DNA of 64,000 nucleotides from a bacterium. Lineage in GTDB: Bacteria; Electryoneota; Electryoneia; Electryoneales; Electryoneaceae. A program made the translations under genes and the position numbers. The notes below the pieces were generated by a model, which worked only from the letters and a program-made list of their open reading frames with translations, did no database searches and had not been told where the DNA came from. Shown piece by piece: positions 7,529-24,728 of the stretch (the first letter of the stretch is position 1; each line of letters begins with the position of its first letter). Where the stretch lies: assembly GCA_020444265.1 (NCBI GenBank), contig JAHLLH010000002.1:485033-549032 (forward strand), given 5' to 3'.

Positions 7529-7558
7529 TCTGACGTATGATTCGCGCACAACCTGTTG

Positions 7559-7612: not shown

Positions 7613-7728
7613 GCTCTTTTAAGAGGTTGTGTCAGATCCTCAGATCTGCCACTTGATTCGTACCGCGGCGCGATCCTCTGTAAGTTCTCTGCTTCGCCAA
7701 GGACCTGACAAAACGAATGGGCACAAAA

Positions 7729-7756
7729 AAAGGCCGCGGCGTTAGCCGCGGCCTTT
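7729..7756 (-). terminator. rho-independent terminator of the cold-shock gene
   Basis: A 12-bp stem AAAGGCCGCGGC (7729-7740) with GTTA loop pairs with 7745-7756. On the minus strand it is followed by a run of T. It lies 19 bases past the stop of the minus-strand cold-shock gene. Confidence 0.9.
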
Positions 7757-7774
7757 GGGCATCAAGACTTTTAT

Positions 7775-7978
7775 TTACATGCCCGGCCGACGGACATTTC
7801 CGGCCGCAGGGCCTTTCTGTCCTTGCTCAAGTTCAAACTCAACTTCTTCACCCTCGTTGAGGGTCTTGAAGCCATCGGACTGGATGGCGCTGAAATGCAC
7901 GAAGACATCCTTGCCGTCTTCAGCTTCGATGAACCCGAAGCCCTTGGCTTCGTTGAACCACTTCACTTTACCCTTCAT
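7775..7978 (-). CDS. cold-shock protein, CspA family
   Basis: A 67-residue single OB-fold protein with RNP1-type KGFGFI and RNP2-type VFVHF motifs, the full usual length of CspA proteins. It binds single-stranded RNA and DNA and acts as an RNA chaperone. It is monocistronic, with its own terminator and a long AT-rich upstream region that may hold a structured 5' leader as in other csp genes. Confidence 0.96.
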
Positions 7979-8546: not shown

Positions 8547-9701
8547 ATGACGCGCGAAACGAGTGCTGCTCCGACGGGAGAAGGATCGATTCTCAAGGGT
8601 GGGACCATCCTGGTGACCGGAGGGACCGGATCCTTCGGCAAGATGTTTACTCGCCACCTGTTGAAACACTACCAGCCGAGAAGGCTGATCATCTTCAGCA
8701 GGGATGAACTGAAGCAGCACGAGATGCGCATGGCGGGCTTCAACGGCCCGCAGATGCGTTATTTCATCGGCGATGTACGTGACAAAGACCGTTTGCGCCG
8801 CGCCATGCGTGGGGTCGATGTGGTGGTTCATGCTGCCGCACTCAAGCAGGTGCCCGCATGTGAGTACAACCCGATGGAAGCAGTGCAGACCAACGTCAAC
8901 GGTGCGCGCAACATCATTGATGCCGCGATTGATACCGGTGTCAAGAAGGTGCTGGCGCTCTCTACCGACAAAGCGGTCAACCCTGTGAATCTTTACGGCG
9001 CGACCAAGCTGGTGGCCGAGAAACTTTTCATTCAGAGCAACGCCTATTCTGGTGGCGACGGTACGATGTTCAGCTGTGTCCGATATGGAAACGTCGTCGG
9101 CAGCCGTGGCAGTGTCATCCCGGTTTTTGCCAAGCAGCGCGCCTCCGGCAAGATTACCATCACCGACCCACGAATGACCCGCTTCTGGCTCACCCTCGCG
9201 CAGGGGGTGAAGTTTGTCGCGGACACGATCAATGTGATGCACGGCGGTGAAATCTTCATCCCGAAAATCCCAAGCATGAACATCATGGACCTTGCGATGG
9301 CGGTGGCGCCGGAGTGTGATGTCGATGTTATCGGCATCCGTCCCGGTGAAAAGCTGCATGAGCTGCTGGTAGGAGAAGATGAGGCACGACACACGCTCGA
9401 GCTGGAAGAGATGTTCGTGATCCAACCGGCGCACCCCTGGTGGTCCAAGAGCAATTTCGCCGATGGGCGCCCGCTGCCGGATGGTTTCAAGTACGACAGC
9501 AACTCAAATGACGAGTGGCTTGACATGGAAGAGTTGCGTCAATTCGTCGACACAGTCGAACACGAGGGCGATGAAGATCATGATCCCGTACGGGCGTCAG
9601 TGGATATCGCGGGAGGACGAGGAGGCGGTGCTGGAGGTACTTCGGTCACCGTGGCTCACAACCGGGCCGACAGTCGGGACGTTCGAGACACGATTCGCTG
9701 A
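8547..9701 (+). CDS. pseB: UDP-GlcNAc 4,6-dehydratase (inverting), PseB-like
   Basis: The protein has 384 residues with an extended SDR/Rossmann fold: GGTGSFG at 25-31, STDKAVNP at 139-146 and the catalytic YxxxK as Y150-K154 in LYGATK, all very close to PseB/FlaA1. It makes the 4-keto-6-deoxy-L-altro sugar that starts pseudaminic acid synthesis in the cytoplasm. PseB proteins are usually about 330-345 residues; this one has a 17-residue N-terminal extension and about 45 extra C-terminal residues, Gly/Arg-rich, that are read through the start of pseC in another frame. The natural stop was probably lost by mutation, frameshift or assembly error. It heads the glycan operon. Confidence 0.92.
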   Translation: MTRETSAAPTGEGSILKGGTILVTGGTGSFGKMFTRHLLKHYQPRRLIIFSRDELKQHEMRMAGFNGPQMRYFIGDVRDKDRLRRAMRGVDVVVHAAALKQVPACEYNPMEAVQTNVNGARNIIDAAIDTGVKKVLALSTDKAVNPVNLYGATKLVAEKLFIQSNAYSGGDGTMFSCVRYGNVVGSRGSVIPVFAKQRASGKITITDPRMTRFWLTLAQGVKFVADTINVMHGGEIFIPKIPSMNIMDLAMAVAPECDVDVIGIRPGEKLHELLVGEDEARHTLELEEMFVIQPAHPWWSKSNFADGRPLPDGFKYDSNSNDEWLDMEELRQFVDTVEHEGDEDHDPVRASVDIAGGRGGGAGGTSVTVAHNRADSRDVRDTIR

Positions 9702-10728
9702 AGCAGTAGGCGCGAAGCATGCGGTAGCTGTCAGCAATGGCACTGCCGCGTTGCATGCCGCTGTTCACGCTGCCGGGGTTGGTCCCGGTGATGAAGTGAT
9801 CGTACCCCCGATGACGTTCGCGGCCACCGCGAACGTTGTCCTGTTCATGGGAGCGACCCCGGTTTTTGTCGATGTCGACTCGTCTACCCTGCTGATCGAC
9901 CCTGAAAAAGTCGAGCAGTTGGTGACCAGCCGGACCAAGGCAGTCATCGGGGTGGACTATGCCGGGCAGCCCTGCGACTGGGTGGCGTTGCGTACCATCG
10001 CGGAGAAGCACAACCTCGTCCTGATCGCCGATGCCTGCCATGCGCCGGGCGCGACCCTGCATGGGAAACCGGTCGGTAGCCTGGCTGATCTCTCGACCTT
10101 CAGCTTCCACCCGGTCAAGCACATCACCACCGCCGAAGGCGGGATGATTACAACGGATGATGAGGCGATGGTCGAGGCAATGCGTCGGTTTCGCAACCAC
10201 GGCATCACATCGGACCATCGCAGCCGTCAGGAGAAGGGGACCTGGCGCTACGAGATGACTGGTCTGGGTTACAACTATCGTCTCAGCGATTTGCAGGCGG
10301 CACTTGGACTCAGTCAGCTCGGTCGCCTTGGGGAGTGGGTCGAGAAACGGCGTGCTATTGCGGCGCGTTACGACGAAGCCTTCGCCGACTTGCCCGGAGT
10401 GGAACCGCTTGGAGGGCTCCAAGGCGCCCGACCGGCGTGGCATCTCTATGTCGTGCGGATCAAGCAGGCTGTGACGGGATTGGATCGGGACACCCTCTTC
10501 CAGCGACTGCGTGAGCGAGGAATTGGGGCAAATGTCCACTACATCCCGGTCCATCTGCACCCCTGGTACCGTGAGCAACTCGGCACGGGTGAGGGGCTTT
10601 GTCCTGTGGCGGAAGAGGCGGCGGAGGAAATCCTCTCGCTTCCGATGTACCCGGCAATGAGATACGAAGAGATTGAAACGGTGATCGGTGAAATCAGGTC
10701 TGCACTGTCCAAGGAGGACGTAGCATGA
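9571..10728 (+). CDS. pseC: PseC-like sugar 4-aminotransferase (PLP)
   Basis: The protein has 385 residues of the DegT/DnrJ/EryC1/StrS fold. The PLP lysine is K183 in FSFHPVKHITTAEGG, and D154 of LIADACHAPG contacts the pyridine ring. In the Pse pathway it converts the PseB product to UDP-4-amino-4,6-dideoxy-L-AltNAc. The start is ATG 9571 (or ATG 9580, MIPYGRQWI), giving a 131-base overlap with the annotated end of pseB. The frame open to 9463 is an unlikely extension. Its stop overlaps the next start by ATGA. Confidence 0.92.
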   Translation: MKIMIPYGRQWISREDEEAVLEVLRSPWLTTGPTVGTFETRFAEAVGAKHAVAVSNGTAALHAAVHAAGVGPGDEVIVPPMTFAATANVVLFMGATPVFVDVDSSTLLIDPEKVEQLVTSRTKAVIGVDYAGQPCDWVALRTIAEKHNLVLIADACHAPGATLHGKPVGSLADLSTFSFHPVKHITTAEGGMITTDDEAMVEAMRRFRNHGITSDHRSRQEKGTWRYEMTGLGYNYRLSDLQAALGLSQLGRLGEWVEKRRAIAARYDEAFADLPGVEPLGGLQGARPAWHLYVVRIKQAVTGLDRDTLFQRLRERGIGANVHYIPVHLHPWYREQLGTGEGLCPVAEEAAEEILSLPMYPAMRYEEIETVIGEIRSALSKEDVA

Positions 10729-11483
10729 AGGTCGTGGCAATCATCCAAGCACGGATGGGCAGCACCCGTCTCCCGGCTAAGGTGATGAAACCGCTCCTGG
10801 ATCGCCCGATGATCGAGCATGTGATGCACCGAGTCGGGCAGGCGAAAACCTTAGACGATGTCGTGCTGGCAACCACCGACTTGCCACGGGATAATGTGCT
10901 CGCCTCCCTCGCGGAACAGCACGGATGGAACTGTTTCCGTGGCAGCGAGGACGATGTTCTGGACCGTTACTACGGCGCCGCCCTCGCGACCAATGCGGAT
11001 GTGGTGGTCCGCATTACCTCCGATTGCCCTCTGATGGATCCCAGCCTGATTGATGCGGCGGTGAAAAAATTCCTCGCGGCCCTGCCGGAAGCGGATTACC
11101 TCTGCAACTGGCTGCCGGAACGGACCTATCCTCGCGGTCTTGAGCTCGAGGTACTGACCTTCGAGGCCCTCGAACGAGTCTGGCGAGAGGACCACAACAA
11201 ACTCTGGCGCGAGCATGTCACCAGCTACATCGACTACCGTCGCGAGCTGTTCAACATCCACGGCATGATGCATGATCGTGGGTTGTCGCACCTGCGGTGG
11301 ACGGTGGATGAACCGTCAGATTACGAGCTGATTTCACGGATATACGACCACTTCGGGCACGCTGATTTCAGTTGGATCGAAGCGCTTGAGCTGGTTGAGT
11401 CTACACCGGAATTGAGCAAGATCAACGCCGATGTGAAGCAAAAGGCTTGGCCGGTGACGGCGGAGGAGTGGGAGAAGGCCTGA
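10725..11483 (+). CDS. SpsF-like cytidylyltransferase (candidate PseF role)
   Basis: The protein has 252 residues with the nucleotidyltransferase signature IIQARMGSTRLPAKVM at the N-terminus and the acidic metal site VRITSDCPLMDP. The family (CMP-NeuAc synthetase-like, SpsF) activates sugars with CTP. In this operon it is the likely enzyme for CMP-pseudaminate. True PseF proteins usually begin with an IPARGGSKR-type motif, so this is the SpsF branch rather than canonical PseF. It overlaps pseC by 4 bases. A related domain is fused to an oxidoreductase at 21646. Confidence 0.85.
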   Translation: MKVVAIIQARMGSTRLPAKVMKPLLDRPMIEHVMHRVGQAKTLDDVVLATTDLPRDNVLASLAEQHGWNCFRGSEDDVLDRYYGAALATNADVVVRITSDCPLMDPSLIDAAVKKFLAALPEADYLCNWLPERTYPRGLELEVLTFEALERVWREDHNKLWREHVTSYIDYRRELFNIHGMMHDRGLSHLRWTVDEPSDYELISRIYDHFGHADFSWIEALELVESTPELSKINADVKQKAWPVTAEEWEKA

Positions 11484-11952
11484 GTCTGGCCCGGCGGGTG
11501 GCCCGACTTGCTCGCAAGTCGGGTGTATTCATCAATGTAGGCCGGATTCTTGAATCCGGCGAGGATGGGCGAAGCCCATCGACCTTTTTTCTGTTCCGTC
11601 AGGTCTTTAGCGAAGCGGTGACCTGACGGATGTTCGCGCCGCAGGCGCGGAGAGGTGTAAAAACAGGATAAACCCGGGCGGCACGCCCGGGCCACGCGGT
11701 TTCATGGCTTGGGTGCCCCGTCACCCAAGCGTGCATGTCAGCACAATACCGCCCCGGTTGAGTAGACCACGCGGCCTCGGATCAGGTAGCTGAGCACGAC
11801 CAGGACAGCGTCAGCTGGATCCCGGGTCGAGCCCGGGATGACAGAGGTGGGAGCAGGGGGGCGAAAGTGAGCAGACCCGGGCAACCAGCCTACGCCAAGG
11901 CTACGGCTTGGCAGGCAAGATTGCCCGGGCCAGATGCAGCAGTGAGGATAAT
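11484..11952. repeat. repeat-filled 469-base gap inside the glycan locus
   Basis: Contents in order: a terminator-like hairpin CCCGACTTG-CTCG-CAAGTCGGG (11502-11523); a family B repeat (about 11593-11660); a family D hairpin (11703-11741); a family C palindrome around CCCGGGTCGAGCCCGGG (11814-11842); and a CCCGGGCAA/TTGCCCGGG hairpin arm pair near 11877-11930. No gene is seen. The gap may break the operon between the cytidylyltransferase and the radical SAM gene. Confidence 0.6.
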
Positions 11953-13131
11953 ATGAGCGAGAACAAAGGCAAAGCGGGATTCCGCAGGATTGTCAAACGA
12001 GTGGTCGACCAAGTGGCGTATGTCGAGAACATCCGTGAGGAGATGCCGCTCTTTCCGCAGTACATCCACATCGAACCGACCAACGCTTGCAACCTGAACT
12101 GCACCCACTGCCACCATCATATCCGTCCCAATGGCAAACGTGCGATCACTCGTCGCTTCGGCATGATGAAATGGGATGTCTACACCAGGATTATTGATGA
12201 GCTTGAAGGGCGGCAGGTTCCCGTCACCCTCGACACCCAGGGTGAGCCGACCCTACATCCTCGTTTTCTAGACATGATCGAGTACGCCCGATCCAAGGGG
12301 GTCTACACTTCGGTCATCACCAATGGCACCCGTCTGACCGAAGAGATGACACGACGTTTGATCGAGCTGAAGTTGGACCGTTTGGTCTTCTCCTTTGATG
12401 GCATCGACAAGCGGCTCTACGAATCGGTACGGGTGCGATCCAAGTTCGAACCGACCTTTCGAAACGTGCTGCGTTTCATCCGGATGAACCACGAGGCGGG
12501 GCACCCGACCCATGTCTGCATGTCTATGGTCTTCCAGGAGAAGACACGGGACCATGCCGATGAGTACAAGCGCTTTTTCCTATCGCTACCTGTCGACAAA
12601 GTCTTCCTCAACCCGCTACTCAACCTGGCGGGCTTGAGCGAGGTGGGTGAGGCGGAAGTGGACAACAGCGATCCTCAGGGGCGGCCTCAGTCGGACTGGC
12701 CGATCTGCCGAATCCCTTGGGAGAGCATGACCATCAACTGGGATGGGACCGTCGGTCCTTGCCCGGTGGATGTGAACGTGGTTTACGGCCTCGCGAATGT
12801 TACTGAATCCACGTTGGAAGAGATCTGGAACAATGATCGGATGAAGCAGTTCCGTCGTGCGCACATCACGAAGGATTACAGTCTCATTGAAGAGCAGGGT
12901 AAGCTCTGCGGCAGCTGCAATGCGAAGTTCGACGATGAGTACGATTTGCGTGACTACCCGAACTATGCGGTCGATGCCATAGAACGTCAAGCGATCCATT
13001 TCGCGCACCAGCTACGCGAGGATAGCCCGGAGGCGACGGATGACGAGGCACGGTACCAGCGTCTACTCGAAGTGATCGACAATCTCGAGTCGATTGAGGC
13101 ACCTGTCTCGGTGGGGACAAACGGAGTTTAG
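11953..13131 (+). CDS. radical SAM/SPASM enzyme of the glycan locus
   Basis: The protein has 392 residues. The SAM-binding [4Fe-4S] cluster is held by C46, C50 and C53 (CNLNCTHC). Further Cys at 252, 270, 319 and 322 form a SPASM-like auxiliary cluster. Such enzymes generate a 5'-deoxyadenosyl radical to modify peptides, sugars or cofactors; the substrate here is unknown. GTGAGGATAAT before ATG 11953 supports the start, and the in-frame ATG 11908 lies inside a repeat. It is followed 9 bases later by a formyltransferase gene, so the two may act on the same intermediate. Confidence 0.85.
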   Translation: MSENKGKAGFRRIVKRVVDQVAYVENIREEMPLFPQYIHIEPTNACNLNCTHCHHHIRPNGKRAITRRFGMMKWDVYTRIIDELEGRQVPVTLDTQGEPTLHPRFLDMIEYARSKGVYTSVITNGTRLTEEMTRRLIELKLDRLVFSFDGIDKRLYESVRVRSKFEPTFRNVLRFIRMNHEAGHPTHVCMSMVFQEKTRDHADEYKRFFLSLPVDKVFLNPLLNLAGLSEVGEAEVDNSDPQGRPQSDWPICRIPWESMTINWDGTVGPCPVDVNVVYGLANVTESTLEEIWNNDRMKQFRRAHITKDYSLIEEQGKLCGSCNAKFDDEYDLRDYPNYAVDAIERQAIHFAHQLREDSPEATDDEARYQRLLEVIDNLESIEAPVSVGTNGV

Positions 13132-13140
13132 GACGGGATC

Positions 13141-13971
13141 ATGCGCATCCTCTTTCTCGGTAACAATCGAGTCGGACTGGAAACTCTTCGCTACTTGCAA
13201 ATGCAGGGCGAGGAGCTGGTCGGTCTCGTGCTCCATCCCGAGGAGATGCGCAAGTGTGGACCCGAGCTGATCGAAACTGCAAGTGTGCCGGGTGATGCCC
13301 TGTTTCAAGCGAAAAGTCTTCGTGACCCGGACGTACTCGAGCGCATTCGTGACCTGAAGGCGGATATTGCGGTGTCGGTCTTCTTCGGCTTTATCCTTAA
13401 ACCAGAGTTCATCAATATCTTTCCGCAGGGTGTGATCAACCTGCATCCCGCCTACCTGCCATGGAACCGTGGCGGCTATCCCAATGTCTGGTCGATCATC
13501 GATGGCACCCCGGCTGGGGCGACCCTTCACTACATTGACCCGGGCGTGGACACCGGCGACATTATCCTGCAACGTGAAGTGGAGATCTCGCCCACCGACA
13601 CCGGGGAAAGCCTCTACGACAAGCTGGAACACTGCTGTGTTGATGTCTTCAAGGCTGGCTGGCCGATGATCCATTCCGGCAACGCGCCACGTGCTCCGCA
13701 AGATCCGTCTGAAGGCACCAGCCACCGTGACCGCGATGTCGAAACCGTCGATCAGATCGACCTTGACAAACAGTACACCGGGCGAGATCTGATCAACCTG
13801 CTGCGAGCGCGCACGTTCCCGCCGCACGCGGGCGCGTGGTTCGAAGAGAACGGGAAAAAAGTCTATCTCCGTTTGCAGCTCCTGACCAAGGAACAGCTTG
13901 AGGCGGAGCAGTCCATCGGGGGGATGGGCAAGGACGGCGAGCCGTCACGCCGGGAGGAGAAGCATGCCTGA
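13141..13971 (+). CDS. formyltransferase, methionyl-tRNA/sugar N-formyltransferase fold
   Basis: The protein has 276 residues. The catalytic triad of N10-formyl-THF transferases is visible as N100 and H102 in INLHPAYLPWNRGG and D137 in GVDTGD. The protein is shorter than Fmt and lacks its usual C-terminal tRNA-binding domain, which fits sugar N-formyltransferases (VioF/WlaRD type). Within a pseudaminic acid locus it may add an N-formyl group to an amino sugar. It overlaps the next gene by 8 bases. Confidence 0.85.
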   Translation: MRILFLGNNRVGLETLRYLQMQGEELVGLVLHPEEMRKCGPELIETASVPGDALFQAKSLRDPDVLERIRDLKADIAVSVFFGFILKPEFINIFPQGVINLHPAYLPWNRGGYPNVWSIIDGTPAGATLHYIDPGVDTGDIILQREVEISPTDTGESLYDKLEHCCVDVFKAGWPMIHSGNAPRAPQDPSEGTSHRDRDVETVDQIDLDKQYTGRDLINLLRARTFPPHAGAWFEENGKKVYLRLQLLTKEQLEAEQSIGGMGKDGEPSRREEKHA

Positions 13972-15463
13972 TCTCGTATCCTGGCTTCCCCTCGATACCC
14001 TGCTTGGGATTGTCCGCATCGGCTTCGGGTTGATGTTCCTCGTCAAGCTGGGGTATTCGTTCGATGCCGTCCAGCTCGTATGGGCGCACAAACGGCCCGG
14101 AGGGGAGGGGCTCTTCCGTGCATTGAGGATCATTCTCTTCTCCAGCGCGGTCTTCTTCACTCTTGGCCTTTTCACCGGTCCGGCGGCGCTGGTGATGTGG
14201 TTGCTCTACGTGGTTTTGTGGAGGTACGCCTCCCTCTACGGCATGGAGGACATCGCCTTCCATGCAATCGCCTTCTATTTTGTCTTCGCAGGAGCGGGGG
14301 ATGCGGTCTCACTCGACGCCTTGTTTGGGGTCATCGCCTGGAGTCGCCTGCCTGCGGGTACACTGATCCCTGAACTGGCCCTCGCGGTTGCGCTGGGCAA
14401 CATCTTTTTGTCCGCCGGTGTGACCAAGCTCCCGAGCAAGATGTGGCAACGGGGGCTGGGGGCCTACTACTTCTTCCTGATGCCCAATTTCAGACGTTTC
14501 GATACCAGCCTGATTACACGTTTCGAGCTGCCGATCCGAATCCTGAACTATGTCGCGCTGGTGATGGAAATCGGGATGCTGCCGGCGATTCTTCTGAATG
14601 GCTGGCCGGTCGGGCTGCTCTTCTGGTTCCTCGCTTTCGGCTTCACCATCACCCTTGCGACCATCTTTGTCTTGACCTGGATCGGCGAGGCGCTTTCGCT
14701 GGTGATGCTGCTCGTCCTCTGGCTTTTGTTGCACCAGCAGGGTGCGGGGCTGTTGCCACTGCTGACGACTGAACTGGGCGCACTGTCCTGGACACCCCTG
14801 AACATCACCCTGATTGCCCTGATGACCACGACCCTCGGGGCGGGCCTCTGGGTTTCAATCATCGCCTTCCCGAAATGGGTGGAGAAGGTGCCCTTTGTGC
14901 GTGAACTGGATCGTCTCTTCCGAACCATCTCACGAAACACCTGGGGTCTGATCCCCTGTATCGTCTTCACCGAAACCCACATGGAAGGACCGGTGGTCTA
15001 TCGTGTCTGGGCGGAGGACGGTGAGGGTAGCCGTGAGGTCTTCCGTATATTTGGCGAACAGTCGAACCCCGGTCCGGATCGCCCGTTCAGACCCGCTTTC
15101 TACGAAGTAACGTCCTACAAAGTAGCAGAAGCCTGTATGGAGCTCGACAATTGGGGCGAGGTACGCACCGAGCCGAGGCGTGCCTTCATCCTGCGGCTGG
15201 CGGAATTGATCGCACGGAAAGCGTCACACCAGGGTACCCATCCGGAGAGTCTTCGTTTCCGCATGCGTCAGATCATCCCGCCGAAAGGCTTCGCCGGATC
15301 GATCCAGCCGCACCTCGAGAAACCGTGGCGAGATGCCTTTGTTGTCCGCTTCAACCAGGGGCAGGCAGTGAGTATCGAGGGGCTGGGTGACAAGATCCTC
15401 GAAGGACCGACCGGGCGGGACATAAACCGTATCTCGTTCGCGTTCAACCCACGTCAACCGTGA
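13964..15463 (+). CDS. HTTM/DoxX-like polytopic membrane protein
   Basis: The protein has 499 residues. Residues 1 to about 310 hold some eight hydrophobic helices, and the rest is a soluble domain (starting near CIVFTETHMEGP). The layout resembles the horizontally transferred transmembrane (HTTM) domain found in vitamin K-dependent carboxylase relatives and DoxX-like proteins. The next gene encodes a DCC-family protein, a partner often seen with HTTM proteins. GGGAGGAGAAGC before ATG 13964 fixes the start. The function is unknown; a membrane redox role is possible. Confidence 0.6.
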   Translation: MPDLVSWLPLDTLLGIVRIGFGLMFLVKLGYSFDAVQLVWAHKRPGGEGLFRALRIILFSSAVFFTLGLFTGPAALVMWLLYVVLWRYASLYGMEDIAFHAIAFYFVFAGAGDAVSLDALFGVIAWSRLPAGTLIPELALAVALGNIFLSAGVTKLPSKMWQRGLGAYYFFLMPNFRRFDTSLITRFELPIRILNYVALVMEIGMLPAILLNGWPVGLLFWFLAFGFTITLATIFVLTWIGEALSLVMLLVLWLLLHQQGAGLLPLLTTELGALSWTPLNITLIALMTTTLGAGLWVSIIAFPKWVEKVPFVRELDRLFRTISRNTWGLIPCIVFTETHMEGPVVYRVWAEDGEGSREVFRIFGEQSNPGPDRPFRPAFYEVTSYKVAEACMELDNWGEVRTEPRRAFILRLAELIARKASHQGTHPESLRFRMRQIIPPKGFAGSIQPHLEKPWRDAFVVRFNQGQAVSIEGLGDKILEGPTGRDINRISFAFNPRQP

Positions 15464-15470
15464 GGGAGCG

Positions 15471-15902
15471 ATGTACCTGTCATTAAAAAAGGACCAGGGA
15501 CGTTTACAGCGTCCTATCTTCCTCTATGATGCCGATTGTGGAGTCTGCACACGGACGGTTCACTGGCTGAAGGATCGTGGTGCGGGCATTGCGATCGAGT
15601 TCACCCCCTACCAGATGCAGCTCGACCTGCTGAGACGAGTCAACCTGACTGAAGAAGAATGTCTTGATGCGGCCTGGGTGATCGAACCAAACGGGTCCAA
15701 GGTCCGGCTATACCGTGGCGCCGCGGCGATCAATTACGGTTTTAGGAAAACCACCTTGCCCTCCTCGCTGGGCTGGCGTCTATTGGGTAGGCTTTATCCC
15801 CTGCCGGGGATCCGCCAGGCGGAAGACCTTGGCTATGCCTGGTTCGCGAAAAACCGTCGCCGCTTCTCCCGCGAGGGAGAGGTTTGCTCGGTGGAGATGT
15901 GA
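15471..15902 (+). CDS. DCC-family (DUF393) thiol-disulfide oxidoreductase-like protein
   Basis: The protein has 143 residues with the family signature DADCGVC (D20, C23, C26) at the N-terminus, followed by a thioredoxin-like pattern ending with the characteristic GWRLLGRLYPLPGIRQAEDLGYAWFAKNR region (residues about 100-130). DCC proteins have a CxxC redox pair and commonly pair with HTTM-domain membrane proteins, as here (7-base gap). The biochemical substrate is not known. Confidence 0.85.
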   Translation: MYLSLKKDQGRLQRPIFLYDADCGVCTRTVHWLKDRGAGIAIEFTPYQMQLDLLRRVNLTEEECLDAAWVIEPNGSKVRLYRGAAAINYGFRKTTLPSSLGWRLLGRLYPLPGIRQAEDLGYAWFAKNRRRFSREGEVCSVEM

Positions 15903-15906
15903 TGCG

Positions 15907-16584
15907 ATGAATGAGTCCCGTTACAAGCCGGTCAGTGTGCAGGAAGTAGTGGAGGAGTACTCTGCCTCCGCCGATGCCGGGACTCCTTATCAACGGGCCA
16001 AATGGGGCAGTGAAGCGAGCATGGTCAACCGGTTCCGTTTCGCGCTGCGCCTCCTGCCGATGTCGGATATCCGCACCTGGCTCGACATCGGCTGTGGCGA
16101 GGCCGATTTTTTTGCCCTCGCGGAAGAAGAGGGTTACATCTTCGACCAGCTCACCGGCCTTGACATCACCCCGGCGATGCTGCAACGAGCACGTACGAAA
16201 GCCCTCATCAGTCCGTCCCGTTTCATCGAAGGAACGCTCGAGCAGGCAGGTTCGCCAGGGGAAAGATTCGACCTGGTCACCCTGCTGGGGGTGTTGCAGC
16301 AGTGTGGCATGCGGCCTGCGGAGGCCTTGAGCTCCGCTGCGAGGGCAGTAAAACCGGGCGGTGTGCTCTTCGCCACAACCAAACATCTCGGATGGAATGA
16401 ATTTACCTCTGGACGGTTGTCGCCGAATGAAAACCACTCCTGGTTCTTGTTGCCGGAGTTGGAAGAGGCGGTCGATCTGTCCGGCTTACAACTGATCAAA
16501 AGCGGTGGATATCTGCCACGAGAAGACCTGGAGGTTCCCGTCGAGGAATCGCACATGGTTTATCTCCTGGCCCAGCGGCCCTGA
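15907..16584 (+). CDS. class I SAM-dependent methyltransferase
   Basis: The protein has 225 residues with motif I WLDIGCGEADFF (residues 58-70), the motif II acidic region TGLDITPAML, and a post-motif DLVTLLGVLQQC. It is a small Methyltransf_11/25-type enzyme. The start is ATG 15907, 4 bases after the DCC stop; the frame opens further upstream only as a shadow of that gene. In this operon the likely substrate is a sugar hydroxyl, amine or carboxyl group (inference). Confidence 0.82.
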   Translation: MNESRYKPVSVQEVVEEYSASADAGTPYQRAKWGSEASMVNRFRFALRLLPMSDIRTWLDIGCGEADFFALAEEEGYIFDQLTGLDITPAMLQRARTKALISPSRFIEGTLEQAGSPGERFDLVTLLGVLQQCGMRPAEALSSAARAVKPGGVLFATTKHLGWNEFTSGRLSPNENHSWFLLPELEEAVDLSGLQLIKSGGYLPREDLEVPVEESHMVYLLAQRP

Positions 16585-16593
16585 GGGGGGAGT

Positions 16594-17595
16594 ATGGGAT
16601 CCATGAAAGTGACGGTTCGTGCCGATGGCGGCTCGGAGATTGGGTACGGACACCTGATGCGGACCAGCACCATCCTCCGAACGATCGGACGAATTGTTGA
16701 TCTGGATGTGCGATACCTCGTACGGTCCTGGTGCGACACCGCACCGATTGAGGAAGCGGGTTGGTCGGTCGAGGTGGTAGAGGATGATTCTTGGATCGAT
16801 GAAGTTATACCTGATGCCGGTCCCCTGCTGATCGATAGCTATGAGACGACTGTCGAGCAGTTGGATCGTCTCCGTGGCACCGGTGCGATGGTGGTGATGC
16901 TCGAGGATGGGCAGAGGTTGGATCGTTACCCGGTGGACCTGCTGATCGATTCAGCTCCGGGGGCATCCAAACTCGCGTACCAGGGAGAAGTGGCCACTCT
17001 CTTCGCACTCGGAGTGCAGTATCTGCCCCTGCGGCGAGAGTTCCTGACTCTTGACCGTCTGGACACTCTACGGGAACGCACCCCCCACATCCTGCTCACC
17101 TTCGGAGGCAGCGATCCCGATGATCTGAGTAGCCGTCTCTTGCCCATGGTGGAACGGATGGAGGGAGTTGGACGCATCACCGTTGTGCTTGGTCCGGGGT
17201 ACCAGGGGCGGGTCAGCCCCTCGGATGCCGGGGGACGGGTTGTGATTTTACGGAATGTGAACCGGATGGCGGAGTTGATGCAGGATGCCGACCTGGCCAT
17301 CTCGGCGGCGGGCGGGACAGCATTGGAACTGGCATATGTCGGTGTGCCTACCCTGCTGCTGCCATTGACACGGGATCAGGAGCCAATTGCGACGGCGCTG
17401 GTCGAGGCTGGTGCGTCAAGGATGTTGAGCTTTGCCAAGGGCGAGGGGGAAACCGTCGCCGAACAGATCGGAAACATTTTGAAGGACAGGGATGCCCGTC
17501 TCGCAATGAATCGTGCGGGACGAACCCTGGTGGATGGACGAGGGGCGGAACGGATCGCCCATCTCATGTTGGATCAATGGCGAGGCAGAATGTGA
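16594..17595 (+). CDS. pseG: PseG-like UDP-sugar hydrolase
   Basis: The protein has 333 residues of GT-B fold, similar to MurG. The N-terminal RADGGSEIGYGHLMR contains the catalytic-type His (H20) of PseG, and the C-terminal domain has the FGGSDP and AISAAGGTALELAYVGVP nucleotide-binding segments. PseG removes UDP from the 2,4-diacetamido sugar before condensation by PseI. GGGGGGAG lies 1 base before ATG 16594 and 10 before ATG 16603 (MKVTVRADGG); the second start is also plausible. Its end overlaps the next gene by up to 19 bases. Confidence 0.88.
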   Translation: MGSMKVTVRADGGSEIGYGHLMRTSTILRTIGRIVDLDVRYLVRSWCDTAPIEEAGWSVEVVEDDSWIDEVIPDAGPLLIDSYETTVEQLDRLRGTGAMVVMLEDGQRLDRYPVDLLIDSAPGASKLAYQGEVATLFALGVQYLPLRREFLTLDRLDTLRERTPHILLTFGGSDPDDLSSRLLPMVERMEGVGRITVVLGPGYQGRVSPSDAGGRVVILRNVNRMAELMQDADLAISAAGGTALELAYVGVPTLLLPLTRDQEPIATALVEAGASRMLSFAKGEGETVAEQIGNILKDRDARLAMNRAGRTLVDGRGAERIAHLMLDQWRGRM

Positions 17596-18467
17596 TCTCA
17601 ATACCCGGTAGTGGGATTCGTTGGATCGATGCGGAGGTGCATCTCTTCCCGGCGGAATGGTGCACCGAAAGCTGGCAACCGCCCCATGAGGAGCGAGTGC
17701 TTAGACGCACGATCTACGAGCACCCCGACCGGGAGGTTGCGCTCGCGGGGGCCGATATCAATGGCTTGATCGCCGAGATGGATCGTGCCGGAATCCACGG
17801 ATCGGTCATCATGGGGTTGCCCTGGCTCAGTCCTCGACTCTGCGACGAAAACAATGCTGCTATCGCGGAAGCAGTGAAACAACATCCCGACCGTCTCATC
17901 GGACTTGGAGTCCTGCCGCCACCGGACCGTGTCGACCCGGTGCATGCAGTGCGCACGATCCATGAAGAACACGGGTTGAGCGGGGTGAAGGTGATTCCAG
18001 CCTGGCAGGATTGGCGTCTCGACACCTCTTCGATGGATGACGCATACCGCGAAATGGCTGAGCGTGGCCTCGTCCTGATGCCCCACACCGACCACCCCTA
18101 CCTGCCCGATGAGGGGTTCGATGCTCCGCATCGCCTGCTGAATGTGGCGAGACGGTTCCCCGACCTGAAGATTGCCGCACCCCATCTGGGCGGAATGCTG
18201 GCGGGCTATGGGTTGTACGAGCCGTTGCGTGAGGAGCTGAACAACATTCTCTTTATCGGAACTGTCCCCAAGACCATGCCGATGATCCGTTGGGCGGTCG
18301 AAGCGGTGGGGGCTGGACAGGTCGCGTTCGGGACCGATTTCCCCTTCAATCCCACCCACGAGCAATCATCGATGCTGGAAACTGTGGCCGCAATGGGTTT
18401 CAGCGATGCTGATCTGAAACGAATCGCTGGTCAGAATGTGCTGGACTTTTACGGGGTCGAGTGGTGA
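17577..18467 (+). CDS. amidohydrolase (ACMSD/amidohydrolase_2-like)
   Basis: The protein has about 296 residues of TIM-barrel type. Likely metal and catalytic residues are D18 and H22 in IDAEVH (the usual H-x-H has Glu at the first position), the His pair in MPHTDHPY, His in APHLGG and Asp in FGTDFPFNP. The family covers decarboxylases and hydrolases. In this context it might act on an acyl or carboxyl group of a sugar intermediate. The start may be ATG 17577 or GTG 17592; both overlap pseG. It overlaps the following WbqC gene. Confidence 0.75.
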   Translation: MARQNVISIPGSGIRWIDAEVHLFPAEWCTESWQPPHEERVLRRTIYEHPDREVALAGADINGLIAEMDRAGIHGSVIMGLPWLSPRLCDENNAAIAEAVKQHPDRLIGLGVLPPPDRVDPVHAVRTIHEEHGLSGVKVIPAWQDWRLDTSSMDDAYREMAERGLVLMPHTDHPYLPDEGFDAPHRLLNVARRFPDLKIAAPHLGGMLAGYGLYEPLREELNNILFIGTVPKTMPMIRWAVEAVGAGQVAFGTDFPFNPTHEQSSMLETVAAMGFSDADLKRIAGQNVLDFYGVEW

Positions 18468-19246
18468 GGATTGTTTCTGGACATCAGCCGGTTTACCTGC
18501 CCTGGCTTGGCCTGTTCCACAAGGCGAGCCTTGCCGATGTCTTTGTCTTTATGGACGATGTCCAGTACCTTCGTCAGGATTGGAACAACCGCAACAAGAT
18601 CAAGGGTTCGCAGGGCGCTTTCTGGTTGACGGTTCCGGTTCGTTTGAAACAATCCGCCAGCGAAAGGCTGCGCGATATCCGTGTCGACAGCGATGGTTTC
18701 GGAGCGAAACGTCACTGGCAATCCGAGCATTTCCGCGCCCTCGAAACCTGTTACCGTAAGTCTCCCTACTGGGAGCAGTACGCTCCCTTCCTCGACTCTT
18801 TCTACCATGCCAAGCCATGGGACTGGCTCTGGGAAATCAACTTGACGCAGCTTCAATTTTTCTTCGAAGAGCTGGCTATCACCCCCGAACTGTTGATCGC
18901 CACCGAAGTCGGTTTCGAGGGGGCCAAATCCGACCTGGTGCTGGATCACTGCCGAAAGACCGGGGCCGGGTTGTGTGTGACGGGGACCTTTGGACGGGAC
19001 TACATCGATGTTCAGTCCTTTATTGATGAAGGCTTGTCCCTCCATTTTCAGGAGTATCAGCACCCGGACTATTCGCAACGCTACGGTGATTTTGTCAGCC
19101 ACTTGAGTGTGATTGATCTACTTATGAACCACGGACCAGACAGCCGAGATCTCCTCCTTACGGGCAATGTTACACGCTCCGAGCTCGAGCAGGCTGTGAA
19201 GCAGAAGGGCGAACCGGGAGTGATCGAGAGGAGTTCGGGGAAATGA
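18461..19246 (+). CDS. WbqC-family protein
   Basis: The protein has 261 residues with the family hallmark HQPVYLPWLGLFHKASLADVF (first 20 or so residues after the start) and FWLTVPV. WbqC-like proteins occur in O-antigen and nonulosonic acid loci and are thought to help in sugar modification, possibly acyl transfer; no reaction is firmly established. GTG 18461 or GTG 18464 overlaps the stop of the amidohydrolase, and its own stop overlaps pseI by ATGA. Confidence 0.85.
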   Translation: MVRIVSGHQPVYLPWLGLFHKASLADVFVFMDDVQYLRQDWNNRNKIKGSQGAFWLTVPVRLKQSASERLRDIRVDSDGFGAKRHWQSEHFRALETCYRKSPYWEQYAPFLDSFYHAKPWDWLWEINLTQLQFFFEELAITPELLIATEVGFEGAKSDLVLDHCRKTGAGLCVTGTFGRDYIDVQSFIDEGLSLHFQEYQHPDYSQRYGDFVSHLSVIDLLMNHGPDSRDLLLTGNVTRSELEQAVKQKGEPGVIERSSGK

Positions 19247-20295
19247 GCCAACGATTTGTCCTCGGATCTCGCACCCTCCAGCCGGGCCAGCCGCCCTATG
19301 TGGTCGCTGAAATTGGGGTCAATCACAACGGTGATTACGACCTCGCCGTGCGGAGTATCGATGCCGCCGTCGAGGCGGGGGTCGATGCAGTCAAGTTCCA
19401 GACATTTCGCGCCGAAGAATTCATGGCCGACCCGGACCACATGTATGAGTATGAAAACCAGGGCGAAGTGGTTCGTGAGTCGATGTACGAGATGTTCAAA
19501 CGGCTGGAGTTACCGGAAAGCTGGCACGGGAAGCTGAAGGCGTACTCGGAAGAGAAAGGGGTTGATTTTCTCTCGAGTGCCGCCGATCCACTCTCCGCCA
19601 ATTTGCTGGTACGGTTGGGTGTTCCGGCGTTAAAACTCGCCAGCGAAGATCTGATCAATTTGCCGTTGCTCGCCCATGTCGGCAGCCTCGGGCAACCGGT
19701 GATCGTTTCGACCGGAATGGGGGACGAACACGAGGTTGAGCAGGCGCTCGAGACCCTGAAATTAGGCGGCTGCGATGATATTCTGCTGCTGCACTGTGTT
19801 TCCCTCTACCCGACCCCGGACGAAGAAGTCAATCTCCAGCGCATGATCGCCCTGCGGGACCGGTTCGGGCTGCCCGTGGGTTATTCGGACCACAGCTGGG
19901 GCATAGAAGCATCCCTTGCTGCCACCGCGCTGGGCGCCCTCTTCATCGAAAAACATTTCACCCTGGACCGTACCCTGCCCGGCCCCGACCACGCCCTTTC
20001 CAGCGACCCCGCTGAGATGAAAGCATTGGTCGAGGGGGTCCGCAAGGTGGTACGCCAACTGGGCGCCACCACCATTCAGCCTTCCCCTGGCGAAGCGGCA
20101 GCACGCCGTTCCTTCCGACGGTCCATCGTCGCCAAAACCGACCTCCCTGTGGGGACCGTCCTCAACTCGACCCATCTCCACCTGAAACGACCCGGAACTG
20201 GCCTCCCACCAAGCCGTCTCGAAAGGCTGCTGGGCAAGACCCTCCTCCGTCCACTCACGCAGAACGAACAGCTTCGCGACGAGGATGTTGGATAA
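19243..20295 (+). CDS. pseI: pseudaminic acid synthase-like (NeuB family)
   Basis: The protein has 350 residues: a NeuB TIM barrel (AEIGVNHNGD at the start, KFQTF, KLASEDL, STGM, GYSDH, EKHFT) followed by an antifreeze/SAF-like C-terminal domain (about 290-350). It condenses phosphoenolpyruvate with the 6-deoxy-diacetamido sugar to form a nonulosonic acid. The presence of PseB, PseC and PseG makes pseudaminic acid the better guess than legionaminic or sialic acid. It is the last gene of the first transcription block; a 217-base gap follows. Confidence 0.9.
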   Translation: MSQRFVLGSRTLQPGQPPYVVAEIGVNHNGDYDLAVRSIDAAVEAGVDAVKFQTFRAEEFMADPDHMYEYENQGEVVRESMYEMFKRLELPESWHGKLKAYSEEKGVDFLSSAADPLSANLLVRLGVPALKLASEDLINLPLLAHVGSLGQPVIVSTGMGDEHEVEQALETLKLGGCDDILLLHCVSLYPTPDEEVNLQRMIALRDRFGLPVGYSDHSWGIEASLAATALGALFIEKHFTLDRTLPGPDHALSSDPAEMKALVEGVRKVVRQLGATTIQPSPGEAAARRSFRRSIVAKTDLPVGTVLNSTHLHLKRPGTGLPPSRLERLLGKTLLRPLTQNEQLRDEDVG

Positions 20296-20512: not shown

Positions 20513-21649
20513 ATGAAGACGATCATTCTTGCCGGAACGGGACGGAGCGGGACCACCATCGCGGCCGATGTAATCAATGCGGCGGGACGGTTCCGGTTCC
20601 TGTTTGAGCCGCTTTTCGCAGAGCGGGTGCCGCTTTTCTCCGACCTCAGGGCTCGCGAATACCTCGGCCCGGAACGAGAACGTCCCGATCTCAACGAGCT
20701 CTTCGACCGTCTCCTTGAAGGGGATGTCAGCAACGAGTGGACCGACCGTCACCCCATTCCCGAATCGCCACAAGGCTTGTTCATCAAAATGGTCCGTGCC
20801 AACCTGCTGCTGGGCTGGCTGCACCGTCAGTATCCCGAACTGAAGCTGATCCTGATGCTGCGTCACCCTCTTGCGGTGAGCGAGTCACGGTTACGGATGA
20901 AGTGGCCTGTTACACTGGGCACCTATACCGGGCAGAAGGTGCTTCGGGAACGGTACCTGGAGCCGTACGAAGAAGTGCTGGCGGGATGTGGAAACCTGCT
21001 CGAAAAACATGTAGCTGCCTGGTGCATTGAGACCCTGATTCCCCTCGCGGAAGTTCCCGTTGAAGCGTGTCGCCCGTTGGTCTACGAGCAGCTTGTCGAG
21101 CAGTCCGGTCTTACCCTGCTGGATCTCGGGGCATACCTGGGCGAATCCTTCGGGGAGATTGAACTTGCACGGCTGGATCGTCCTTCCGAAACGAGCATGG
21201 CCAGTAGCGCGAATGCGATCCGTGCCGGGAAAAAGGTTACCAAACGCTGGATGACAGCCTTCTCGCCTGAGTTGATCGACCGATCCTTCGAGATTGTCGA
21301 GAGCTTTGGTTTGGTCGGGTTGTACGGCAGGGGCGGCGAGTTTCCCACCATCCAGACCTACCGAAACGTGCGAAACGAGGTCCTGAAGAAGCTGGGTCGA
21401 GAGGATGAGATCAACCTTCGTGAACGGTACAATCCACCGGCTATCCTGTCCGTTGGACGGAAACGTCCGCTTCGGGTTGAGGAAGCGGTGGCGCTTGCAC
21501 GGAGGGGGCTGCATCGGGCCGCGCTCGCACGTCTCGATCGCCTCACGAACCAGCCCGAGTTTAAGGGTGCGGTTCGGGAGGCAAAACGTGAGATTACGTT
21601 AATGCGCCAGAAACACAGCAACCAGGTCCTACAGCAACAGGCAGGATGA
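20513..21649 (+). CDS. sulfotransferase-like protein
   Basis: The protein has 378 residues with an N-terminal PAPS-binding loop GTGRSGTT (residues 8-15) and the second PAPS contact region LILMLRHPLAVSESRLRMKW. The C-terminal 100 residues are charged and not typical of the family core. It probably sulfates a glycan or lipid. ATG 20513 precedes the P-loop strand directly; the longer frame from 20477 overlaps a GAACCGGG/CCCGGTTC hairpin (20463-20487). It overlaps the next gene by 4 bases. Confidence 0.82.
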   Translation: MKTIILAGTGRSGTTIAADVINAAGRFRFLFEPLFAERVPLFSDLRAREYLGPERERPDLNELFDRLLEGDVSNEWTDRHPIPESPQGLFIKMVRANLLLGWLHRQYPELKLILMLRHPLAVSESRLRMKWPVTLGTYTGQKVLRERYLEPYEEVLAGCGNLLEKHVAAWCIETLIPLAEVPVEACRPLVYEQLVEQSGLTLLDLGAYLGESFGEIELARLDRPSETSMASSANAIRAGKKVTKRWMTAFSPELIDRSFEIVESFGLVGLYGRGGEFPTIQTYRNVRNEVLKKLGREDEINLRERYNPPAILSVGRKRPLRVEEAVALARRGLHRAALARLDRLTNQPEFKGAVREAKREITLMRQKHSNQVLQQQAG

Positions 21650-23418
21650 TGGGATCACGATACGCAGTTGAGAACCCCACAATTGGGGCGGTGGTCGTGG
21701 CACGAATGAAGTCGAGCCGTCTGCCGGGAAAATCGATGATCGACATTGAGGGTTACCCCTCCCTCGGCTGGCTGGTGGACCGCATCTCAAAATCCACCAC
21801 GTTGCAGCATATCTCTATCGCGACCACTGATGATCCCGCCGATGATCCAATCGAGGACTATGCCCTCGACCATGGCCTGCTCTGCTACCGTGGCAGCATG
21901 GAGGATGTGCTGGGCCGTGTGCACGGCGCTGTCCAACACGCCGGGTTCGATGTCGTCGTCCACCTGACTGGTGACTGCCCCCTGCTCGATCCGTCCATCA
22001 TTGATCGTGCTGTCGTAGCCTTCCTCGAACGCGACCTGGACTACCTGATCACCAACCCGGAACAGCATCCTCGCGGGTTGGATACGGAAGTTTTCTGGGC
22101 GACAGCATTGGCCGATGTGGAAGCTTCGTATGATGACCCCTGGATTCGCGAGCATGTCACCGAACCACTCTATACGACCCCGGATCGTTATTCCGCGGGT
22201 CGCCTGGATGCACCCGACGAGCTGCACCGTCCGGACTACCGTCTCTGCATCGACACTCCCGAGGATTATGCACTGATCGACAACATCGCCAAACATTTTG
22301 CCCCGGAGCGTTTTTTCCCGGCGAAGGCAGTGATGGAGCTGCTCGACGGACGGCCCGACCTGGTGGCGATCAACTCTTCGATTAAGCAGAAAAAGTACAA
22401 CGCAGCTGTGATCGGTCTAGGCCAGATCGGCTCGACCTATGACCAGGACCCGAAGCTGGGGAAGCGAGTGAGCACCCATGCGGGTGCCTATCTGCGCTAT
22501 GGCAAAACCCGTCTTGCCGCCGGGGTTGATCAGGATCCTTCCGCGCGTGAAGTCTTTCGCAGCATGAGAAAGGTTCAGGACGTTTACACCTCGTTTGAGG
22601 AACTGCTCGATGCTCAGACGCCTGACCTCGTCTCCATCGCCACCCATACTTCCAGTCATGCGGAATTGTGTGATCGTGCGCTGGATGCCGGGATCAAGGT
22701 AATCTTTTGCGAAAAACCCTTTGTCGATGACCTCGAAGCCGGGCAACGGCTGCTGGAAAAAGCCGACGCTGCCGGAGCGATCATCGCGGTCAACCATTGG
22801 ATGCGCTGGTCTCCGCTCTTTCGTGAGTTGCGTGACTACATCCGGGATGGCCGCCTGGGCGAGGTGATGAGTGTGCGCCTGCACTACAGCCGTGGCTCCA
22901 TGAATTCCGGCAGCCATGCAGCTGACCTGGTCCGTTTCCTCTTCGGCGAAGTTGCTGGCGTCCGTGCCACAGAACGGATGGAGTTGGACACCGGCGACCC
23001 GAACATAGGCGGCATTCTGGAGTTGGAAAGCGGGGCGCTGGTCCATCTCACCATCGGCGACTACCATCACCATTTCACGTTCGACCTCGACATCATTGGC
23101 AGTCTTGGGCGTGTCCATGTGCATGATGAGGGGGTCGATTTCTGGCGAGTGGCGGAAGGGGAACGTGCCAATGACATCCGTTCCCTGCTCAAAGCGCCCT
23201 CTCCCTTTGAAGAGGAACCGGTGACCGATTTTACGGCGCCGGTGGAGGAGTTGGTAAACGTCCTCGATTTTGGCACCGGTTCGATCAGTTGCACCGGGGC
23301 CGATGGATTGGCAGCGGTGCGGATTATCAAAACGTTGCAGGCATCCTGGGAGCAAGGGTGTGCACGGCTCACCTTTGATCAGCAACACGTTGTGACGGAG
23401 TCAGGAGAGAACCCATGA
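21646..23418 (+). CDS. fusion: SpsF-like cytidylyltransferase + Gfo/Idh/MocA oxidoreductase
   Basis: The protein has 590 residues. Residues 12-245 form an SpsF-like nucleotidyltransferase (SRLPGK at 24-29, LTGDCPLLDP at 107-116) that ends with the usual INSSIKQK. At 251 a Gfo/Idh/MocA oxidoreductase begins, with the Rossmann motif GLGQIG at 257-262 and EKP at 356-358. Each part is about full family length, so this is a true two-domain fusion. The pair might oxidise a nucleotide sugar and activate a product, with the aminotransferase encoded next (4-base overlap). The fusion itself is uncommon in my knowledge. Confidence 0.85.
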   Translation: MMGSRYAVENPTIGAVVVARMKSSRLPGKSMIDIEGYPSLGWLVDRISKSTTLQHISIATTDDPADDPIEDYALDHGLLCYRGSMEDVLGRVHGAVQHAGFDVVVHLTGDCPLLDPSIIDRAVVAFLERDLDYLITNPEQHPRGLDTEVFWATALADVEASYDDPWIREHVTEPLYTTPDRYSAGRLDAPDELHRPDYRLCIDTPEDYALIDNIAKHFAPERFFPAKAVMELLDGRPDLVAINSSIKQKKYNAAVIGLGQIGSTYDQDPKLGKRVSTHAGAYLRYGKTRLAAGVDQDPSAREVFRSMRKVQDVYTSFEELLDAQTPDLVSIATHTSSHAELCDRALDAGIKVIFCEKPFVDDLEAGQRLLEKADAAGAIIAVNHWMRWSPLFRELRDYIRDGRLGEVMSVRLHYSRGSMNSGSHAADLVRFLFGEVAGVRATERMELDTGDPNIGGILELESGALVHLTIGDYHHHFTFDLDIIGSLGRVHVHDEGVDFWRVAEGERANDIRSLLKAPSPFEEEPVTDFTAPVEELVNVLDFGTGSISCTGADGLAAVRIIKTLQASWEQGCARLTFDQQHVVTESGENP

Positions 23419-24728
23419 GCGAACTCGCCCTGCTGGGGGGCAGCCCCCTGGTAAATCGGAAGTGGCCGGCCTACAACACCATCGGCGACGAGGAAAAAGC
23501 CGAGGTGCTCGATGTGCTGGAGAGCGGCATTCTTTCGGCGTTCCACGCCTCGCCCGGGAAGACGTTCGGTGGTGGCCCGAAGGTGATGCAGCTCGAAAAG
23601 GAGTGGGCAGACCACTTCGGAGTGAAGCACGCCATTTCAATGAACAGCGCCACCTCCGCGCTCTACGCAGCGGTAACTGCCTGCGGGATTGGGCCGGGGG
23701 ATGAGGTGATCGTCAACCCGTTGACCATGACAGCAACCGCAAGCGCGGCGCTGGTCAATGGTGCGGTGCCGGTTTTCGCCGATGTTGATCCACACACGAT
23801 GAACCTCGATGCGAAATCGGTTGAGGAGAACATCACCCCACGCACCAAAGCGATTTATGCCGTCCATCTTGCCGGTCTGCCGGACGACATGGACCCGTTG
23901 ATTGCCCTCGCGAAAAAGCACAACCTCTGGCTGCTCGAGGACAATGCACAGGCGCCGGGAGCATTTTACAAGGGGCGCTACGCCGGGACAATTGGCGACA
24001 TCGGGGTCTTCTCGCTCAACTGCCACAAGGTGATCCAGAGTGGCGAGGGCGGTATCGCGGTGACCAATGACGATGACCTCGCGCTGAAGCTCAAACTGGT
24101 ACGGAATCACGGGGAAAAACTGCTGCACCGTTTCGGTCTGGGTGGCAAAGACAACCTGATCGGCTACAACTACCGCATGACCGAGATGGAAGCGGCGGTC
24201 GCCTATCATCAGCTGCGTCGCCTTGACAAGCTCAACGAATGGAGCGTCCGTCTGGCGGACTTCCTCTCGGCACGCATCCGTCGCGAGTTTGATTTCCTCA
24301 CCCCGCCGCTGGTCCCGTCCAGCTCGACCCATGTCTACTACTTCTACCAGATGGAGTACGACGAAGACAAGGCCGGGCTGCCGCTGGACCTCTTTACCGA
24401 AGCGGTTCGTGCGGAAGGAGTACCCGTCGCAAGCCGTTGGCCGATGCCGCTGTACCGTCAGACAATTTACCGTGACCGGAGCGCCATCGGCACCACCGGC
24501 TACCCCTTCAGCAAGCCGTGGACTGAGAGCGATGTTTCCTACGAAGAGGGCATTTGTCCTGTCGCGGAGCAGTGGGAACATCGTTCCTTCTTTATCGAGA
24601 CGCTCGTGCGCTGGCCCAATGAGGAAGAACACATGGAATTGATCGTGCAGGCGATCCAGAAGGTGATGGAGAATCGTGGTGAACTACTCGATGCACAGAG
24701 GAAAAGTGCAGCGGAGCTGGTCGGTTGA
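23415..24728 (+). CDS. DegT/DnrJ/EryC1/StrS aminotransferase
   Basis: The protein has 437 residues, longer than PseC (385). PLP sites: D176 in LLEDNAQAPGA and K205 in FSLNCHKVIQSGEGG. It is a second sugar aminotransferase in the locus and follows an oxidoreductase domain. That order resembles routes where a keto-sugar made by oxidation is transaminated, as in WbpB/WbpE-type pathways. The substrate is not known. ATGA and TTGA overlaps tie it to both neighbours. Confidence 0.85.
   Translation: MSELALLGGSPLVNRKWPAYNTIGDEEKAEVLDVLESGILSAFHASPGKTFGGGPKVMQLEKEWADHFGVKHAISMNSATSALYAAVTACGIGPGDEVIVNPLTMTATASAALVNGAVPVFADVDPHTMNLDAKSVEENITPRTKAIYAVHLAGLPDDMDPLIALAKKHNLWLLEDNAQAPGAFYKGRYAGTIGDIGVFSLNCHKVIQSGEGGIAVTNDDDLALKLKLVRNHGEKLLHRFGLGGKDNLIGYNYRMTEMEAAVAYHQLRRLDKLNEWSVRLADFLSARIRREFDFLTPPLVPSSSTHVYYFYQMEYDEDKAGLPLDLFTEAVRAEGVPVASRWPMPLYRQTIYRDRSAIGTTGYPFSKPWTESDVSYEEGICPVAEQWEHRSFFIETLVRWPNEEEHMELIVQAIQKVMENRGELLDAQRKSAAELVG

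Follow-up and report, generated by a model that had tools for sequence, protein, structure and literature searches.

A probable PseJ-type nonulosonic acid pathway with accessory tailoring genes in a member of the Electryoneota

We analysed a stretch of 64,000 nucleotides (nt) from a bacterium of the Electryoneota (JAHLLH010000002.1, positions 485,033 to 549,032; part of our contig C11 in a 4.33-Mb genome), hereafter the window, whose numbering is used throughout. It holds a gene cluster that probably encodes a nonulosonic acid pathway of the PseJ type with accessory tailoring genes. A preliminary description had named twelve genes between 8547 and 20295, and all twelve were found there on the + strand in the order it gave (Table 1). 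Its proposal of an unusually decorated nonulosonic acid held up: a PseJ-like enzyme and its cassette context give good support at the sequence level for a product that is N-formylated and probably methylated. Its placing of the cluster's end at 20295 did not, as a downstream module continues to 27161 (about 27.2 kb), parts of which recur with the same cassette elsewhere. The unusual features of this variant are a radical S-adenosylmethionine (SAM) enzyme of its own lineage, an off-type synthase and an HTTM/DCC pair; most of the enzymes that look out of place here have counterparts in comparable clusters of other phyla.

The formyltransferase has PseJ as its top PDB match (6ci2_A/6ci4_A, E 1e-30), and its Asn100, His102 and Asp137 are invariant across four aligned cassette members. 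An Asn-x-His motif and an Asp are catalytic in formyltransferases. With PseJ (PDB 6ci2, 6ci4, 6ci5, 6edk) it shares the formyltransferase core and a cassette slot adjoining PseG and the synthase, but it is longer (276 residues, against 192-217 in the PseJ chains) and ends in PF18216, the C-terminal domain of dTDP-sugar-type formyltransferases. PseH, the acetyltransferase of the pseudaminic acid (Pse) pathway, was not found: the sole acetyltransferase recognised nearby, a GNAT protein (25876-26451), scores 41 bits on the PseH model, with a cut-off of 93. A formyltransferase encoded with PseB, PseC, PseG and a synthase, PseH being absent, is a PseJ-type context, and the enzyme most likely takes the place of PseH and is predicted to yield a 7-formamido sugar, C4 of the altrose becoming C7 in the numbering of the established Pse pathway. 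Such a sugar, 7-formamido-Pse, is known from a polysaccharide of Pseudoalteromonas distincta (Muldoon 2001, as cited in PMC7281560), and there are Geobacillus flagellin islands without PseH, some of them with formyltransferases (PMC5109656).

The four aligned cassette formyltransferases were used to scan a collection of genome contigs, yielding 90 relatives, and gene context was taken from the best 80 of these 90 loci. There, by tblastn, neuB was present in 63, pseB in 50, pseC in 49, pseG in 45 and spsF in 38. PseB-PseC-SpsF-PseG-Fmt-PseI cassettes with relatives of the formyltransferase gene (fmt) occur in more than a dozen phyla, the window's own included. With PseJ-type cassettes this widespread (Armatimonadota, Omnitrophota, Myxococcota, Planctomycetota, haloarchaea and others), the few structures known may greatly understate how common formylated nonulosonic acids are. 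One protein of genome G307 (L078:8949-10772) joins a PseG-like domain to a formyltransferase domain in a natural fusion.

Two loci bear comparison with the window. L044 (the same as L140; Calditrichaeota AABM5.125.24), from the same phylum, has the order pseB, pseC, TIGR03587 methylase, spsF, pseG, fmt, PseI, with identities to the window of 70% for pseB, 59% for pseC, 55% for spsF and 53% for fmt; no acetyltransferase stands in its gene row, and TIGR03587 is a methylase family named for Pse biosynthesis. It differs from the window in being compact, in having a true PseI and this methylase, and in being without radical SAM, HTTM/DCC, amidohydrolase and WbqC genes. L088 (genome G188) shares pseB, an off-type NeuB (46% identity), spsF, a PseG-like protein, fmt, DegT, methyltransferases, WbqC and PIG-L with the window, but a radical SAM relative, HTTM and DCC were not detected in it and its DegT falls below the PseC cut-off. 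WbqC and methyltransferase genes recur in or beside Pse-type cassettes of unrelated phyla.

From family membership and gene context, which were observed, we infer the reactions, the product and co-expression. PseB and PseC would convert UDP-N-acetylglucosamine into a 4-amino-4,6-dideoxy sugar, whose 4-amine the formyltransferase would formylate in PseH's place. The PseG-like hydrolase would then remove UDP, leaving a free sugar that the NeuB-family synthase would condense with phosphoenolpyruvate. Activation with CMP by the SpsF-like enzyme would follow, and the result would be a 5-acetamido-7-formamido nonulosonic acid. Further modification of this acid could be due to the methyltransferase and, less surely, to the radical SAM enzyme, which resembles BtrN and might perform a two-electron oxidation or a configuration change at a C-OH carbon. 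The HTTM and DCC proteins would form a membrane redox pair with a putative link to the sugar, and the downstream CTP-transferase/Gfo-Idh, DegT and GNAT set may provide a second amino sugar.

Pathway members were called with the curated NCBIfam cut-offs, which PseB and PseC both exceed. The cytidylyltransferase fails the PseF model (Table 1) and is of the SpsF-like type also found in PseJ cassettes. Other results weigh against the assignment. The preliminary description had listed PseG and PseI; the first is below its cut-off, and the synthase does not qualify as PseI under the curated model, with 285 bits on TIGR03586 (cut-off 340) and 372 on the NeuB_NnaB model TIGR03569 (cut-off 400). A tree places it outside the PseI clade, together with the synthases of L088 and L038 (support 99/87); these two score on the models much as it does, whereas the cassette relatives in L044, L134, L142, L146 and L147 have an ordinary PseI at 457-509 bits. 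The GNAT protein at 25876 could still act as PseH, and a spacer with a terminator-like hairpin may split the operon. Since the synthase fails a PseI model that its cassette relatives pass, it is unsafe to name the product pseudaminic acid, from which it may, on sequence grounds, differ in configuration.

The radical SAM protein had been described as radical SAM/SPASM, of which the first half stands (PF04055). Beyond its CxxxCxxC core (Cys 46/50/53) it has only Cys 252, 270, 319 and 322, and it does not satisfy the seven-cysteine SPASM motif CX9-15GX4C-CX2CX5CX3C-C (PMC6231123), though the Pfam SPASM model matches. With this core, a four-cysteine auxiliary site and a BtrN-like fold it is of the Twitch type. 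BtrN, the butirosin radical SAM dehydrogenase (PDB 4m7s, 4m7t), is its best PDB match (E 6e-8 with the single sequence, 4e-37 with a profile) and ranks first in Foldseek for a structure model of fair quality (predicted local distance difference test, pLDDT, 78). Both proteins have the radical SAM core and a Twitch domain with four cysteines, but identity is low and the window enzyme is longer in its N- and C-terminal parts. BtrN catalyses the two-electron oxidation of an aminocyclitol alcohol (PMC9012708).

Radical SAM relatives were present in 7 of the 60 PseG loci sampled across the domain. In L142 the gene lies inside a Pse-PseJ operon whose pse genes are interspersed with methyltransferase genes and WbuX/HisH/HisF-type amidotransferase genes, and in L147 it lies inside another, alongside WbqC and PIG-L. 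Such relatives are about tenfold denser in nonulosonic acid loci (12 in about 1 Mb) than across whole genomes (about 175 in 61), by rough arithmetic with differing thresholds and no formal test. Five of the enzymes from nonulosonic acid loci form one supported clade; the window enzyme is a lone long branch, for which the tree gives no support within that clade, and no relative more than about 35% identical to it turned up in the genomes searched. A scan of the genome contigs with this single protein gave no match, and uniqueness was not concluded from it since the method finds close relatives only. Radical SAM genes therefore recur in nonulosonic acid loci of several phyla, and the window's own may be of separate origin. 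Of the spiro-SPASM model TIGR04321, the first half aligns with the SpsF-like protein and the second half with the radical SAM protein, which hints that SpsF-type and radical SAM domains are joined in some organisms.

These data bear on two other explanations. The product could be a non-Pse isomer, formed if the radical SAM enzyme oxidised or epimerised the sugar derived from PseB and PseC, hence the off-type hydrolase and synthase. The synthase's place in the tree and its low PseI score fit this, as do the kinship with an aminocyclitol dehydrogenase and the clade of five enzymes from nonulosonic acid loci. However, L088 and L038 have the off-type synthase with no radical SAM relative detected, L142 and L147 have radical SAM alongside an ordinary PseI, and the window enzyme lacks near relatives; we consider this explanation a minor though real possibility. 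Its more specific form, in which the BtrN-like enzyme would alter the oxidation state or configuration of the N-formylated amino sugar so that the off-type PseG and NeuB make an undescribed nonulosonic acid, seems to us unlikely. Alternatively the radical SAM protein may have no part in the sugar and instead mature a peptide or a metalloenzyme. Its best NCBIfam match is indeed a maturase of tungsten (W) oxidoreductases (TIGR04317), partial and far below cut-off, but the gene map shows no recognised oxidoreductase of the matching kind beside it, a substrate peptide was not noticed, without a systematic search for one, and the Twitch type, the match to BtrN and the density of relatives in nonulosonic acid loci all point away from that role, which we judge distinctly unlikely. 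Under the PseJ-type reading, it is plausible from the sequence that a radical SAM enzyme tailors the nonulosonic acid, and the window offers one operon in which this would be directly testable.

The HTTM label in the preliminary description rests on weak but consistent matches, and its DCC label on PF04134 above cut-off with a CxxC motif (CGVC). The HTTM-like protein (499 residues) has no Pfam match even at E <= 1, PF05090 included, but matches an HTTM protein of genome G190 (E 4e-4) and, in a pairwise comparison, the HTTM portion of a fusion with DCC (E 1e-5). Its structure model (pLDDT 48) was not used, and kinship with the lipase maturation factor LMF1 found no support by hhalign. DCC1-like domains are fused with HTTM in L214 (3719-5164) and with LMF1 in L216-L218. 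Because such fusions exist, HTTM and DCC are, as sequences go, a natural pair; the fusions join the protein kinds of the window pair in one chain, L214 in the same order, but no nonulosonic acid genes are known beside them and the window HTTM is very divergent. No relative of the HTTM-like protein came up in about 140 nonulosonic acid or formyltransferase loci, in 38 further genomes from the same phylum or in a search of plasmids. Three candidate pairs were rejected: a DCC close to PseG in G066 (next to a glycosyltransferase), an HTTM-DCC fusion in G213 that lies 17 kb away from PseG (adjoined by housekeeping genes, truA-, pgpA- and rodZ-like by eye, and so not counted as linked), and the second DCC of the window's own genome (contig C9; beside a glucose/sorbosone dehydrogenase, with no HTTM). 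Open-access literature searches, with subscription journals outside their range, found no paper on PseJ, none on HTTM plus DCC and, in full text, none evidently linking nonulosonic or pseudaminic acid with radical SAM.

The window's genome holds no second match to the family of the amidohydrolase, and no such gene was found near PseG in 52 other genomes. In G307 an amidohydrolase, a formyltransferase and a flagellin interrupted by a beta-propeller-like insert stand in a row (L127:1897-5760); this single suggestive case was not used, as no sequence kinship to the window amidohydrolase was detected. The preliminary description had taken the genes between the Pse genes as foreign to Pse loci and proposed a search for their order in other genomes. 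That search found the core cassette with fmt again, and the formyltransferase, radical SAM, WbqC and methyltransferase genes recur as well; HTTM, DCC and the amidohydrolase were seen only here among the loci examined. The view of the genes as foreign holds for these three alone, and for them the sample gave the very outcome that the description had named as speaking against its proposal.

The twelve genes fall into two blocks, pseB-pseC-spsF and radical SAM to neuB, separated by a spacer of 469 nt, and a third block (20513-27161) begins about 217 nt after neuB. The tight overlaps described earlier hold for pseC-spsF and for radical SAM to neuB (4-19 nt where genes overlap, 4-9 nt where a gap parts them) and not for the junction at the spacer, nor simply for pseB and pseC, where a non-homologous tail of PseB creates an overlap of 122 nt. 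Parts of the spacer (its positions 13-104, 110-211 and 222-262, for example) are repeated many times in the genome, and some are palindromic. Its hairpin is of a kind no commoner in the region than in shuffled sequence. Because this repeat-derived spacer carries a terminator-like hairpin, co-expression of all twelve genes, as read from the sequence, is doubtful. A chance patchwork, in which a normal PseJ cassette acquired unrelated genes (radical SAM, HTTM/DCC, amidohydrolase) by rearrangement with the spacer as one junction, would agree with these mosaic repeats, with HTTM/DCC and the amidohydrolase turning up in no further nonulosonic acid locus among those examined and with the lack of HTTM-like relatives in the other genomes of the phylum that were searched. 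Yet the tight spacing from radical SAM to neuB, GC content and third-position GC (GC3) uniform across the cluster, and the recurrence of radical SAM, WbqC and methyltransferase genes in nonulosonic acid loci make it improbable. Given the uniform GC and GC3, a recent HTTM/DCC insertion judged by composition was likewise rejected.

Table 1. Features of the cluster in window coordinates, with the main evidence for each
Feature	Position	Strand	Evidence
pseB, inverting UDP-GlcNAc 4,6-dehydratase	8547..9701	+	TIGR03589 506 bits, cut-off 408
pseC, pyridoxal phosphate (PLP) aminotransferase	9580..10728 (start 9571 or 9580)	+	TIGR03588 467 bits, cut-off 424
SpsF-like cytidylyltransferase, presumed CMP-sugar synthetase	10725..11483	+	PF02348 (CTP_transf_3) 110 bits; PseF model 29 bits, cut-off 206
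Non-coding spacer, 469 nt, mosaic of genome-wide repeats, terminator-like hairpin 11564-11580	11484..11952	.	75 further partial matches in own genome
Twitch-type radical SAM enzyme, BtrN-like	11953..13131	+	PF04055; BtrN top PDB match by sequence and fold; cysteines
PseJ-like sugar N-formyltransferase with PF18216 C-terminal domain	13141..13971	+	PseJ top PDB match; N100/H102/D137; cassette context
HTTM-like membrane protein, C-terminal extension of ~170 residues	13964..15463	+	Weak matches to HTTM proteins and HTTM-DCC fusion
DCC1-like thiol-disulfide oxidoreductase (DADCGVC)	15471..15902	+	PF04134 59.4 bits, cut-off 27.8
Class I SAM-dependent methyltransferase	15907..16584	+	PF08241; 43% relative beside PseG in same-family genome
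PseG-like UDP-sugar hydrolase	16594..17595	+	TIGR03590 131 bits, below cut-off 153.6
Amidohydrolase (Amidohydro_2)	17577..18467	+	PF04909 81 bits
WbqC family protein	18461..19246	+	PF08889 235 bits
NeuB-family synthase, not PseI type	19243..20295	+	TIGR03569 372 bits, TIGR03586 285 bits, both below cut-off; tree
Sulfotransferase-like protein, first gene of downstream module	20513..21649	+	PF13469
Cytidylyltransferase fused to Gfo/Idh/MocA oxidoreductase	21646..23418	+	PF02348 and PF01408; two separate genes in L139
Second DegT aminotransferase	23415..24728	+	PF01041; recurs in L134, L139, L163, L170, L094
Unassigned protein accompanying second DegT	24725..25879	+	Relatives in L134, L163, L170; one open frame with DegT in L094
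GNAT acetyltransferase	25876..26451	+	TIGR03585 (PseH) 41 bits, cut-off 93
PIG-L deacetylase	26382..27161	+	PF02585; recurs in 13 of the best 80 fmt loci

Labels in the preliminary description for the formyltransferase, methyltransferase, amidohydrolase and WbqC agree with Pfam or PDB matches. The last ~45 residues of PseB are non-homologous and overlap the start of pseC out of frame; in L044 pseB stops 6 nt ahead of pseC, unlike in the window. The overlap could be natural or a small assembly error.

The CTP-transferase/Gfo-Idh, DegT, unassigned and GNAT genes of the downstream module, all or some of them, accompany the cassette again in Armatimonadota (L134), Verrucomicrobia (L139), Synergistaceae (L163) and Lachnospiraceae (L170). 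In L094, from the same family as the window, DegT and the unassigned protein form one open frame (6624-9281) beside PseG and a methyltransferase. By analogy with oxidation-transamination-acetylation pathways, the module may make a second acetamido sugar. The unassigned protein has no Pfam or NCBIfam match, and several phyla have it together with a DegT aminotransferase. Flanking the glycan cluster are multihaem cytochromes and a nitric oxide reductase NorB-like protein (30389-33303, 41679-43961).

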